The position numbers were made by a program, and so were the translations under genes. DNA of 37,420 nt from the NCBI GenBank assembly GCA_019634275.1, contig JAHQVP010000264.1, positions 1 through 37,420 of the forward strand. The letters are read 5' to 3'. The notes beneath the pieces are model-generated. The model searched no databases. It saw only the letters and a list, made by a program, of their open reading frames with translations, and was not told the DNA's origin. The first letter of the stretch is position 1. The number at the start of each line of letters is the position of its first letter. Positions 8,953 to 15,559 of this stretch are shown piece by piece. Source of the DNA: Saprospiraceae bacterium. GTDB lineage: Bacteria; Bacteroidota; Bacteroidia; Chitinophagales; Saprospiraceae.

Positions 8953-10638
8953 CTAGCGATCGAGTACCAGTTTCCGATTGAGGGTAAGCCCTGGAACCTG
9001 CAGCCGCACGATGTACATACCGGTTGCAAACTGAGAAGCATCGATGGCAGCGGTTCCCTGACCGGCCGTTATCGGTTGGTTTGCCTGGACCTTGCCTTGC
9101 ATGTCCAATACTAACAGGTGGCCATCTTGGCGGATCTGAGGGAGTTGTACCACTACTCGGCCTATGGCTGGATTAGGGGTTATGAGTAGCTCACTTCGAT
9201 GATCAATCACAATGTCTAAAATCATGGAGTAGTCATAGGAGCCATCCAGATCCATGGCTTTGAGGCGATAGAAATAATGGCCAGCATTTTCCACCTGATC
9301 TAAAAATTGATAGTCCGTTCCTCCGTCTTGATTATTGCCCTTGGCCGTGACGTTGCCCACTTTTTCAAAGGCTGCTCCTGCAGTTCTTCGTTCGATCTCA
9401 AAATGAGATGCGTTGAGTTCGAAGCTGGTTGTCCAGTGCAATCTCACCCGCTCGTCAATGCGCTCTATCCCGGTATTGATCAGTGCTACCGGTAGCGCTG
9501 CATCAGAAAAACGATATATGGTTCCGGTCAGGCTAGCTCCATAGGCATTGCCGGATTCATCAAGGCCAAAGGTGCTTACTCTGGTAATGGTCTCATTTAA
9601 CTCCGTCACACTGGCCGATGTCCCATTGGTCGTCAAGGTCCATATTCGGTCGCTGCCGTAGTCGCCAAAGATGTAGTGCCCATTAAAATTGGGGTAGCGA
9701 CTGGCAGGCAATACCACTCCTCCGGTGACACTTCTGCCAACACTGGGATTGGCATAATCCCAAATAGGATCTCGATAGTCTGCCCCTTCAACACAAGAGC
9801 TCTGCTCAAATTCGATCTTCCCTTCTCTACAATCCCACCCAAAATTTATGGGGGACCCATTCGAGACTAAATTTATTTCTTCACGAGCACTTTGCCCCAC
9901 ATCCGCAATCCATAGGCGGTCTTGCTCATCAATGTGAATCCTCCAGGGATTCCGCACACCTACATGCCAAATCTCAGGAACCGTATCACCACCACTGGTT
10001 GCATACGGATTATTTGTAGGGACTGTATGAGCATTGAAATTGGTCGCAGAAGATGAAGTGCTGGGTGTGATCCTCAGAATCTTACCGAGTGGTGAGGTCA
10101 AATCTTGAGCCAATTCGTCCGGATCTCCTCCGCTGCCTCCATCTCCGGAGGCTATGTATAAGTACTGATTATCCATTGCCAGACCACCTCCATTGTGGTT
10201 ACCAAATGGTTGATCGAACTGCAATATGATGACTTCACTGGAAGCATTAGCCTGATTGACATTGCCACTACTCACCTGAAATCTCGACACCCGTGTGACC
10301 AATTGACCCCCTTGTGTAGTGGTGTAATTCACGAAAAAATACCCATTTGAGGCATAATTAGGGTGAAAGACCAGGCCCAAGAGACCCCGCTCATCTCCAC
10401 CACTTCCAAAAGTTGGGTTGATGTCGAGAAATCTCGTCAAGGTAGTCGTTCCTACAGGGTTGACCCATACATCTCCGTCCCTCTCCGCAAAGAAAAGTCG
10501 ATTGGAATTGTCGCCGGCATTGGCGATGTCGGTCACACTGGACAGGCCCGATGTCAGGTAATCTTCAAGAACAAGTTGAGCCGATAGCTCAGAAAGAACA
10601 CTTAAAGTCAGAAAAAGGCTAAAAACTACTTTGTACAT
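8953..10638 (-). CDS. PQQ-dependent sugar dehydrogenase (glucose/sorbosone dehydrogenase-like) with T9SS type A C-terminal domain
   Basis: Signal peptide; ASGDGGSGGDPDELAQDLTSPLGKILRI, EIWHVGVRNPWRIHID; C-terminal ITPNPAIGRVVVQLP...GMYIVRLQVPGLTLNRKLVLDR. Confidence 0.85.
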   Translation of the reverse strand: MYKVVFSLFLTLSVLSELSAQLVLEDYLTSGLSSVTDIANAGDNSNRLFFAERDGDVWVNPVGTTTLTRFLDINPTFGSGGDERGLLGLVFHPNYASNGYFFVNYTTTQGGQLVTRVSRFQVSSGNVNQANASSEVIILQFDQPFGNHNGGGLAMDNQYLYIASGDGGSGGDPDELAQDLTSPLGKILRITPSTSSSATNFNAHTVPTNNPYATSGGDTVPEIWHVGVRNPWRIHIDEQDRLWIADVGQSAREEINLVSNGSPINFGWDCREGKIEFEQSSCVEGADYRDPIWDYANPSVGRSVTGGVVLPASRYPNFNGHYIFGDYGSDRIWTLTTNGTSASVTELNETITRVSTFGLDESGNAYGASLTGTIYRFSDAALPVALINTGIERIDERVRLHWTTSFELNASHFEIERRTAGAAFEKVGNVTAKGNNQDGGTDYQFLDQVENAGHYFYRLKAMDLDGSYDYSMILDIVIDHRSELLITPNPAIGRVVVQLPQIRQDGHLLVLDMQGKVQANQPITAGQGTAAIDASQFATGMYIVRLQVPGLTLNRKLVLDR

Positions 10639-10796
10639 ATCACACTAGTTAGATCACATTATCGATGTGTTCGATCTGGGTACCAATAAGATTATGAGTG
10701 TGGAAACGCCAGAAAGATAAGAACATCCGGTCACAGATGCTTGTCTGAGCATCACAATAATGTCCAGAGTTTCCAGTCCTCTTTCTGCTTCCTTTC

Positions 10797-10822: not shown

Positions 10823-12469
10823 ATGAGCACAAGAGCTTTTCAGGTACCCTACCAGATAGATCCACAATACTCCAAGAAGGTTGCCTATTTCTGCATGGAA
10901 TTTGGCATAGATCAAGCGCTCAAAACATTCTCAGGGGGTCTGGGGTATTTGGCTGGTAGCCATATGCGCAGTGCATATGAGCTTGGCCAAAATCTGATTG
11001 GTGTGGGCATTCTCTGGAAGTACGGTTACTACGACCAGATTCGTAGCCAGGACTCCTCCATGGAGGTGCTTTTTTTAGAAAGGTTCTACAACTACCTAGA
11101 GGACACTGGGATTGTCTTTGACATTTCCGTCGATAAGCATCCGGTCAAAGTTAAGGCTTGGTATCTCCCACCAGATCGATTTAAGACGGCTCCGATGTTC
11201 TTTCTCTCGACAGACCTTCCGGAAAATGATCACCTGGCACAAACGATTTGCCATCGATTGTATGATTCAGTACCCTCGGCAAAGATCGCCCAGTATATTC
11301 TCCTGGGTCGGGGAGGAGCAGAACTCTTGCGCCAATTGAAGTTTGAACCCGATCGCATTCACCTCAATGAAGCACATGGGCTGCCTGCCATTTTCGACAT
11401 GTATTTTGAACATAAGAGCCTGGCTAAGATTAAGGAACAATTTGTATTCACGACGCATACACCAGTGGAAGCAGGCAATGAAGTGCATGATATCCACTTG
11501 CTCAAGAAGATGGGATTCTTTCATGACAACGACCTCGAGGACGTTCGAAAAATCACCGGTGTCGAAAATGGTCACTTTAATCTGACACTCGGCGCACTTC
11601 GCCTTTCGAAAAAAGCCAACGGGGTGAGCAAAATGCACGGGGAAGTAGCAAGAAAGATGTGGTCTGGATATGATGGCGTTTGCGAAATCGACCATGTGAC
11701 GAACTCTCAAAATTTTTCCTACTGGCATGACTTAGCACTCACAGCAGCACTTCAACAGGACGACGACGAAATGCTGCGTAAGAGAAAGGCGGAAATGAAG
11801 AAATCCCTCTTTCAAGAAGTGGTGGACCAGACCGGAAAGATATTTGACCCTAACACCTTGACGATCGTGTGGGCAAGAAGATTTGCGGGATACAAACGCG
11901 CTGATCTCCTAACACGAGATGTGCAAAGGTTTGAACAACTTCTATCTGATGCCGATCGACCCGTGCAAATCATATGGGCCGGTAAACCCTATCCGATGGA
12001 CTATGGTGCCATTAACACCTTTAATAACCTCGCAAGAATTTGTCGCGATTACGAAAACTGTGCGGTCTTGGTGGGTTACGAGCTTAAGCTCTCTAAACTG
12101 CTAAAGCAAGGTTCTGACATCTGGCTCAATACGCCGGTAGTAACCCGAGAAGCCTCAGGAACCAGTGGCATGACCGCTGCCATGAATGGTTCGATCAATT
12201 TCTCGACTTACGATGGTTGGATACCCGAATTTGCTCAGCACGGTCACAATGCCTTTGTCATACCAACCCCAGGTCCAGAGGTACAGGGGATAGACATCGA
12301 TCTTCATGACCTAGATCATTCCTACCGCATTCTCAATACGGAGATACTGCCGATGTATTACGATCGCCAGGCTGATTGGATGCAGATGTTTAAACAAAGC
12401 ATGCGAGACGTATTACCGTTTTTTGATTCTGCTCGTATGGCGCACGAGTACTATGAAAAAATGTACTGA
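10823..12469 (+). CDS. GT35 alpha-glucan (glycogen) phosphorylase family protein, short form, atypical PLP-site residue
   Basis: YFCMEFGIDQALKTFSGGLGYLAGSHMRSA, HTPVEAGNEVH, RRFAGYKRADLL, EASGTSGMTAAMNGSINFSTYDGW; ATG 10823 preferred over 10760. Confidence 0.8.
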   Translation: MSTRAFQVPYQIDPQYSKKVAYFCMEFGIDQALKTFSGGLGYLAGSHMRSAYELGQNLIGVGILWKYGYYDQIRSQDSSMEVLFLERFYNYLEDTGIVFDISVDKHPVKVKAWYLPPDRFKTAPMFFLSTDLPENDHLAQTICHRLYDSVPSAKIAQYILLGRGGAELLRQLKFEPDRIHLNEAHGLPAIFDMYFEHKSLAKIKEQFVFTTHTPVEAGNEVHDIHLLKKMGFFHDNDLEDVRKITGVENGHFNLTLGALRLSKKANGVSKMHGEVARKMWSGYDGVCEIDHVTNSQNFSYWHDLALTAALQQDDDEMLRKRKAEMKKSLFQEVVDQTGKIFDPNTLTIVWARRFAGYKRADLLTRDVQRFEQLLSDADRPVQIIWAGKPYPMDYGAINTFNNLARICRDYENCAVLVGYELKLSKLLKQGSDIWLNTPVVTREASGTSGMTAAMNGSINFSTYDGWIPEFAQHGHNAFVIPTPGPEVQGIDIDLHDLDHSYRILNTEILPMYYDRQADWMQMFKQSMRDVLPFFDSARMAHEYYEKMY

Positions 12470-13689: not shown

Positions 13690-14151
13690 TCACTGATCCG
13701 AAGCCCTACGGTATTTTTCTCGACAGGGTTCTATGCAGGTGTAGCTGATGATCAAATCACGCCCGCTAAGTTCGTATCGAATGGGTAATGAGCCAGCACA
13801 ACCGACAGGCTCAATGGTTAAACTACTGCTTGAATAATTGGCTTCGAAGGGTGGGTCAGTCACAGTGCCCCGACAAAACGACACGTCCGATTCGACCACG
13901 TTGTCAACTCGAAAGTTCATCTTGCGATCACTTTGGGCAGGTTGAAAGGTTCCACTGCCGTCGCCTGGATCTGCCAAGACTTCTACCAACTCCCATACAC
14001 CTACCACGCCCACATCCTCAGTGGCTGCTTCTTTCCCGCAACCGGCGATCACAAGATTGAGTACAAGGAGACAGCAGCCCGCCAATCCTGCTTTCGTCTT
14101 GATTCCTGCTTCATAGAAAGAGCGGGGCATTTTACGATTCTTCATTTCCAT
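13690..14151 (-). CDS. Lipocalin-like lipoprotein, hypothetical
   Basis: Lipobox LVIAGC; VVGVWELVEVLADPGDGSGTF, ELSGRDLIISYTCIEPCREKYRR pattern of Bacteroidota lipocalin-like proteins. Confidence 0.6.
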   Translation of the reverse strand: MEMKNRKMPRSFYEAGIKTKAGLAGCCLLVLNLVIAGCGKEAATEDVGVVGVWELVEVLADPGDGSGTFQPAQSDRKMNFRVDNVVESDVSFCRGTVTDPPFEANYSSSSLTIEPVGCAGSLPIRYELSGRDLIISYTCIEPCREKYRRASDQ

Positions 14152-14300
14152 AGCGTTTTTTGTGTGGACGAGTGCATTCGGTTTGTAATAAGTAAAGACG
14201 GGTTAGAGCGCAAAATGGTTGGGCGAGTGTCATGCCAATGACGAACATCCATAAATCTCTCGTCCGATGTTGGCCTTCCCAGCCGATGATCGGGGATCTG

Positions 14301-14319
14301 ATGTACATTTAAAGTACAT
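14301..14319. repeat. Inverted repeat ATGTAC-N7-GTACAT, candidate operator upstream of the hydrolase–OsmC fusion
   Basis: Perfect 6-bp arms around ATTTAAA, 13 nt upstream of ATG 14333. Confidence 0.45.
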
Positions 14320-14332
14320 AACCTTACTATGT

Positions 14333-15559
14333 ATGCCTACAGAGCGAATCTCATTTACCAACCACGAAGGGCACGAACTAGCGGCAAGACTTGAAGTCCC
14401 TGCTGATCAGGACCCACTTGCCTATGCCGTTTTTGCCCATTGCTTTACTTGCAACAAGAACCTCCCAGCTGCCACCAACATCAGTCGCACCTTAGCCTCC
14501 GCAGGCATCGCAGTCCTTCGTTTTGATTTTACCGGACTTGGACAGAGTGAAGGAGAATTTGCCAAGACAAATTTTTCGACCAATATCACAGACATTATCG
14601 CTGCCTACCAGTATCTACAAGAACAACACGAAGCTCCTCAACTCATGGTAGGCCACTCCCTGGGGGGAGCTGCCGTGGTTTTTGCAGCTGCACAACTCCC
14701 CGAAGTCCGCGGGGTCGCCATTGTAGGTTCCCCATCTGAACCTGCCCATGTCACTCATTTGATGGATGAGGCACTGGAGGATATCGGGGCCAGGGGATTT
14801 GCTGAAGTGGTGATTGCGGGACGCAATTTCAGGATTGAATCACACTTCATCGAATCGCTCAAAGGGAAAGACATTGGAGATATTGTTCGGGACTGGCGCA
14901 AGGCTTTTTTGATCATGCACTCCCCTATTGACAATGTCGTGGGGATCGAAAATGCAGCCAACTACTACCGCAAAGCACTGCATCCCAAGAGTTTTGTCTC
15001 TTTAGATGGAGCTGATCATATTCTAACCAAGAAGGAAGATGCCGACTATGTGGGCAATGTTATCGCTTCATGGGCCACGCGCTATCTTGTCAGGCCGCGC
15101 ACAGATCGGCCCCTCAAGAGTGACTTCCAAGTGGTGGCCAGTCTCCATCAAGAAGATGGTTATACTACTAAGATCAAGGCTGGCAAGCACTACTTAACCG
15201 CAGACGAGCCCACATCGGTGGGCGGAGATGACTACGGACCTTCTCCCTACGAATTGCTCAGCTCAGCACTTGGTGCATGTACTGTTATGACTTTACATAT
15301 GTATGCCAGGAGAAAGAAATGGGACCTACAGCAAGTGCAAGTCCACCTCAACTACGGCAAAATCCACCCCGAAGATTGTCAGGAATGTACCGCAGAAGTA
15401 GGCAAGGACGGTAAGATCAATCACATCGAAAGGCAAATAGACTTGGAAGGAGACCTTAGTCCCGAACAACGTAGCCGCCTTTTAGAGATTGCAGATCGTT
15501 GTCCAGTGCATCGCACACTTGAGGCTGGCGTACATGTCACCACCCGATTGAGCCATTAG
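14333..15559 (+). CDS. Bifunctional alpha/beta hydrolase – OsmC family protein
   Basis: VGHSLGGAAVVFAA hydrolase nucleophile elbow; C-terminal OsmC domain with SALGACTVMTLHMYARRKKW and DRCPVHRTLE; ATG 14333 (MPTERISF) preferred over 14267. Confidence 0.9.
   Translation: MPTERISFTNHEGHELAARLEVPADQDPLAYAVFAHCFTCNKNLPAATNISRTLASAGIAVLRFDFTGLGQSEGEFAKTNFSTNITDIIAAYQYLQEQHEAPQLMVGHSLGGAAVVFAAAQLPEVRGVAIVGSPSEPAHVTHLMDEALEDIGARGFAEVVIAGRNFRIESHFIESLKGKDIGDIVRDWRKAFLIMHSPIDNVVGIENAANYYRKALHPKSFVSLDGADHILTKKEDADYVGNVIASWATRYLVRPRTDRPLKSDFQVVASLHQEDGYTTKIKAGKHYLTADEPTSVGGDDYGPSPYELLSSALGACTVMTLHMYARRKKWDLQQVQVHLNYGKIHPEDCQECTAEVGKDGKINHIERQIDLEGDLSPEQRSRLLEIADRCPVHRTLEAGVHVTTRLSH

Follow-up and report, generated by a model that had tools for sequence, protein, structure and literature searches.

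Alignment confirms a clade of GT35 relatives without the canonical PLP lysine, a real property of the group and not local noise. It is represented here by a gene in a 37,420-nucleotide stretch of DNA from a Saprospiraceae bacterium (hereafter the window), whose product has a threonine, T451, in the column of the motif lysine; with that lysine missing, the canonical PLP anchor is gone. Members of the clade, with threonine or serine (once alanine) in this column, are called T-type, and relatives with lysine K-type. Since their catalytic residues are conserved, we infer that T-type proteins are active GT-B α-glucan enzymes that work without the canonical PLP Schiff base, and their gene context suggests a role in α-glucan metabolism. 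Two accounts of the reaction, transfer from a nucleotide sugar and phosphorolysis with re-anchored or non-covalently held PLP, are close rivals.

The window protein and the T-type clade

The window protein (∼550 residues) matches the TIGR02094 profile over its full length (419.1 bits, cut-off 191.7) and PF00343 at 58.8 bits (cut-off 27), both over the curated cut-offs for GT35 phosphorylases, and has no DUF3417 domain over the cut-off of that model. An alternative start at 10760 would give a 569-residue form, of which most homologues begin near residue 22–27; residue numbers throughout refer to the 548-residue form (Table 1). The AlphaFold2 model (pLDDT 90.9, pTM 0.91) has the GT-B phosphorylase fold, its best solved match being the Segatella copri phosphorylase 20yr (TM 0.90). 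With the TIGR02094 phosphorylases (the Thermococcales MalP family NF041129 and S. copri GlgP, 9l6i/20yr) it shares the HMM match, the catalytic residues and the GT-B fold (TM 0.87–0.90), but it differs from them in having T/S for the PLP lysine. Judged by sequence, the protein is homologous to PLP-dependent GT35 phosphorylases and has their fold and catalytic site, but we do not file it among them, because the lysine that defines such enzymes by forming the PLP Schiff base is absent from the aligned T-type clade.

Table 1. Positions of the T-type gene and its characteristic residues in the window
Feature	Position	Strand	Basis
T-type GT35/TIGR02094 relative, 548 aa	10823..12469	+	intact ORF, translation, profile matches
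G45-S46-H47 (GSH) where K-type has GD[HY]	10955..10963	+	column counts
V349-W350, then R352, R353, Y357, K358, R359	11867..11899	+	phosphate-site Arg/Lys kept; V-W clade-specific
GKPYPMD (G387-D393) where K-type has GKAHP	11981..12001	+	column counts
G418-Y419-E420	12074..12082	+	GY as in GlgA (GT5); K-type mostly [ND]Y[DN]
K428 (AAG), clade-specific invariant lysine, helix after Y419	12104..12106	+	column counts; helix 421-430 in model
EASGTSGMTAAMNG block, E443-G456	12149..12190	+	sequence; aligned to EASGTSGEKAEMNG of 9l6i
T451 (ACC), PLP-lysine column, E443+8	12173..12175	+	alignment, clade counts

The earlier note had read threonine in place of the PLP-binding lysine, and both the alignment and the survey of homologues that it proposed bear this out. 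In HMMER alignments it is T451, and no lysine of the protein, that falls opposite the motif lysine in 9l6i (EASGTSGEKAEMNG) and in further GT35 chains; the column corresponds to K680 of rabbit GP. Among 118 T-type sequences, collected from whole genomes and named contigs, this column holds threonine in 106, serine in 12 and lysine in none, whereas lysine is found in all 27 GT35 sequences outside the clade, a set made up of short, mid-length and long TIGR02094 sequences and a classical GP. In 30 further Campylobacterota loci, at least one of which repeats a genome already counted, the residue is serine in 21, threonine in eight and alanine in one, never lysine; the alanine locus (L184) is the sole T-type relative read with neither threonine nor serine at this position. 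A sequencing error or pseudogene can be dismissed, because T/S is clade-wide and the catalytic residues are invariant, and misalignment with another lysine in register is ruled out by a motif that is gap-free in every alignment. The central inference of the earlier note, that this subfamily lacks the canonical PLP lysine, is thus well supported.

In a 64-row tree the T-type sequences form a single clade (SH-aLRT 100) on a stem of 1.42 changes per site. Their sister (SH-aLRT 98) is a short K-type group drawn mostly from the window's own family, with ∼38% identity to T-type; this short K-type clade (L017–L024, L028, L135) has the same length and architecture but, unlike T-type, retains the lysine and the K-type pocket. 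Nearly 150 relatives were read, and named T-type members come from Bacteroidota, Verrucomicrobiota, Campylobacterota and one pseudomonadotal genus (Halopseudomonas); the group is old and widespread among bacteria. Three T-type contigs titled Beijerinckiaceae or Sphingomonadales (L054, L068, L075) are probably mislabelled MAGs, because they have the same gene clusters nearby as Chitinophagaceae contigs and T-type sequences highly identical to theirs. A search of viral contigs returned zero T-type relatives, and phage records gave matches of 22–30% only. Three records deposited as phages, OR850950.1 (4,267 bp), MT835921.1 and MT836851.1, bear GT35 genes and are probably bacterial DNA. Our literature search found no paper on the T-type clade.

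Genome setting

The T-type gene is tied to glycogen metabolism. In the window's genome (89.8% complete) the window protein is the sole PF00343 protein, and GlgB (832 bits), GlgA (450 bits) and GlgC (429 bits) are also encoded. GlgB exceeds its cut-off in 34 of 39 sampled T-type Bacteroidota genomes against 15 of 29 with neither type (Fisher p 0.002), a p-value that is indicative only, as the genomes are related and partly hand-chosen. The remaining five have weaker GH13 matches; the one that was read shows the layout of a branching enzyme, CBM48/amylase/amylase-C. Co-occurrence with MalQ (13/38 versus 1/15, p 0.08) was not relied on. As to synthesis, 38 T-type Bacteroidota genomes divide into 24 with GlgA, seven with GT3 only, four with GlgE only and three with none of these. 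The idea that T-type is itself the missing glycogen synthase is weakened by these routes, present in 35 of the 38, and further by the finding of GlgA further along a seemingly GlgA-less run.

In 60 of 64 T-type genomes, Chryseobacterium and Akkermansia included, there is no PF00343 protein of any other kind, which at first favoured T-type as a simple replacement for the K-type phosphorylase. This was then weakened by Campylobacterota, where the two types co-occur above expectation (10 of 38 T-type genomes versus 5 of 260 others; Fisher p 7e-7, indicative only, since the genomes are related) and lie in a common gene run, by which we mean same-strand adjacency of genes, in four genomes. This run comprises the K-type phosphorylase, PGM, PGI, T-type, a nucleotidyltransferase/PMM fusion and GH57, continuing with a GH57 4-α-glucanotransferase, GalT, ROK, GlgA and GlgB. 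As these four genomes also hold a K-type phosphorylase and GlgA, T-type is not merely a stand-in for either, and its place in one run with both points to a non-redundant role.

More generally, the campylobacterotal T-type gene sits in runs of glycogen and glycolysis genes and adjoins phosphoglucose isomerase, the nucleotidyltransferase/PMM fusion, ROK kinase, PFK or PGM, the commonest immediate same-strand neighbours being phosphoglucose isomerase (23) and the fusion (15); pgm adjoins it directly in four loci. In G366 the fusion, at L191:3798-6320, is broken into two ORFs, but in sister genomes it is whole. A campylobacterotal phosphorylase at G383:C1:456693-458225 lies in three fragments and looks like a decaying gene.

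Remodelled motifs around the cofactor site

Nine positions, H212, N294, R353, Y357, K358, E443, S445, G446 and T447, are identical in all 118 T-type sequences and correspond to GP H377, N484, R569, Y573, K574, E672, S674, G675 and T676. The catalytic residues among them (GP H377, N484, R569, K574 and E672) are invariant in T-type and K-type, and R353, Y357 and K358 are likewise unchanging in both. S448 is also invariant in T-type, as is T447; in GP the equivalents of these two residues touch the phosphate of PLP. That T-type should be catalytically inert and serve in glucan binding or regulation, a view that the earlier note had in part entertained, is therefore disfavoured and seems very improbable. 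The residue treated as defining is lost, and an inert protein could coexist with GlgA and the K-type phosphorylase, as T-type does in four gene runs, but a pseudoenzyme would have no need to conserve all nine active-site positions.

Around this constant core several motifs have changed. The GSH near the N-terminus and the GKPYPMD noticed by the earlier note in place of GDH and GKAHPAD proved to be clade-wide: S46 is present in 118 of 118 T-type sequences (D in 26/27 K-type), P389 in 118 of 118 (A in 27/27) and Y390 in 116 of 118 (H in 26/27), as is V349 in 118 of 118 (G in 26/27). The clade-specific columns (S46, Q296, V349/W350, P389/Y390, G418/E420, S424, K428 and T451) fall mainly in motifs that, we assume, line the cofactor site of GT35/GT-B enzymes. 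GSH, GKPYP, TN[AS]Q, V-W, G-Y-E and K428 stand where K-type TIGR02094 phosphorylases have other residues.

K428 is lysine in 118 of 118 T-type sequences and in all 30 further Campylobacterota loci, but in none of the 27 K-type sequences, which have T, V or I. All T-type sequences read thus have in common a second candidate lysine that the parent family lacks; as a possible re-sited PLP anchor it would recall the WNK kinases, whose catalytic lysine is displaced. In the AlphaFold2 model it lies on helix 421–430, after the cofactor-contacting tyrosine; its side chain could face the pocket, since it is in helical register with L421 and S424, both also changed in T-type. We regard K428 as a candidate for contacting cofactor or nucleotide.

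Nucleotide sugar, re-anchored PLP or phosphate alone

Our leading, though tentative, reading is that T-type uses an NDP-glucose donor on α-glucan. T-type would then be a retaining GT-B α-glucan transferase that has given up Schiff-base PLP, the Arg353/Lys358/Thr447/Ser448 site and the G-Y loop holding a nucleoside diphosphate where PLP is absent, and glucose would be moved from NDP-glucose onto the end of an α-1,4-glucan. Such an enzyme would be a phosphorylase that has reverted to using sugar nucleotides, as its GT-B relatives do, with an accessory, chain-starting or chain-extending role beside GlgA, GT3 or GlgE and without replacing them.

We lean towards this donor because of the GY loop, the E-X7-T/S motif and the GT5 and Glycos_transf_1 matches in part of the clade. 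Where the loop had [ND]Y it now has GY, the form seen in GlgA, and the PLP-lysine column is E+8 of an E-X7 motif, which in GT4, GT20 and GT3 enzymes bears a ribose-contacting glutamate. The Pfam GT5 model is reached by 25 of 55 T-type relatives and Glycos_transf_1 by nine of 55, against none of nine sister K-type sequences. Also consistent with a change of donor are the strict division of the lysine column between clade and outgroup, the single clade on a long stem, as expected after functional change, the catalytic positions invariant in both types, the phosphoglucose isomerase and nucleotidyltransferase/PMM neighbours in Campylobacterota, and the four runs holding K-type, T-type, GlgA and GlgB, where T-type would do something that the others do not. 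GT5 GlgA shares with T-type the GT-B fold family, the GY loop and, in roles that we assume to be equivalent, the Arg/Lys phosphate site and the glutamate of E-X7. However, E+8 is tyrosine or alanine in the GlgA proteins read, and T-type falls far under the GlgA cut-offs: the best GlgA model gives the window protein 17 bits (cut-off 560), outside the GT5 profile. Sister K-type sequences match GlgA models about equally, TIGR02095 being touched at E up to 0.01, where E-values are indicative only, by 44 of 55 T-type and eight of nine K-type sequences. Moreover, 35 of the 38 Bacteroidota genomes sampled are already equipped with one of the synthesis routes, so that an extra synthase is not obviously needed, the sole-PF00343 pattern would fit a phosphorylase, and K428 could still hold PLP.

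It is possible instead that T-type is a PLP-using maltodextrin/glycogen phosphorylase, with PLP on K428 as a Schiff base or bound non-covalently, a reading suggested by K428, by the phosphate site, whose residues are all kept, and by T-type being the only GT35 kind in most of its genomes whatever their synthesis route. The Schiff base of GP serves only to anchor PLP, and the borohydride-reduced enzyme remains active. The phosphorylase 20yr as best fold match and pgm as immediate neighbour in four campylobacterotal loci agree with this. On the other hand, our literature search found no GT35 with a displaced lysine, and a normal K-type phosphorylase is kept beside T-type in the four gene runs.

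A PLP-free phosphorylase using inorganic phosphate alone appears unlikely. Retaining GT-B phosphorylases free of PLP exist in GT4, Arg353 and Lys358 are kept and the genome context is one of glucan turnover; the GT4 trehalose phosphorylases would, on this reading, share PLP-free chemistry in a GT-B fold but belong to another family and act on another substrate. The invariance of T447 and S448 argues against it, as an enzyme using phosphate alone presumably need not keep these PLP-phosphate contacts. Of the options in the earlier note, the data agree with a PLP-independent glycosyltransferase, use of another lysine has its candidate in K428, and the regulator is disfavoured.

To our knowledge, GT35 is treated as uniformly PLP-dependent. 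It is probable that a clade spanning at least three phyla, with one Pseudomonadota genome in addition, has abandoned the motif-lysine PLP Schiff base, for either NDP-sugar chemistry or K428, and that many genes annotated as α-glucan phosphorylases therefore catalyse another reaction, or one that is built differently. The usual ‘phosphorylase’ annotation of T-type genes is doubtful, and metabolic models resting on it may misstate how such bacteria mobilise or build glycogen. T-type also offers a natural experiment on the role of PLP in phosphorylase, and on how such enzymes came from sugar-nucleotide transferases or revert to them.

Within the window, the T-type gene is divergent from a gene at 8953-10638 (-) whose product resembles glucose/sorbosone dehydrogenases and carries a T9SS type A sorting tail. 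Further along lie a 153-residue ORF at 13690-14151 (-), which has no Pfam or NCBIfam match, and, at 14267-15559 (+), an α/β hydrolase domain fused to an OsmC domain.
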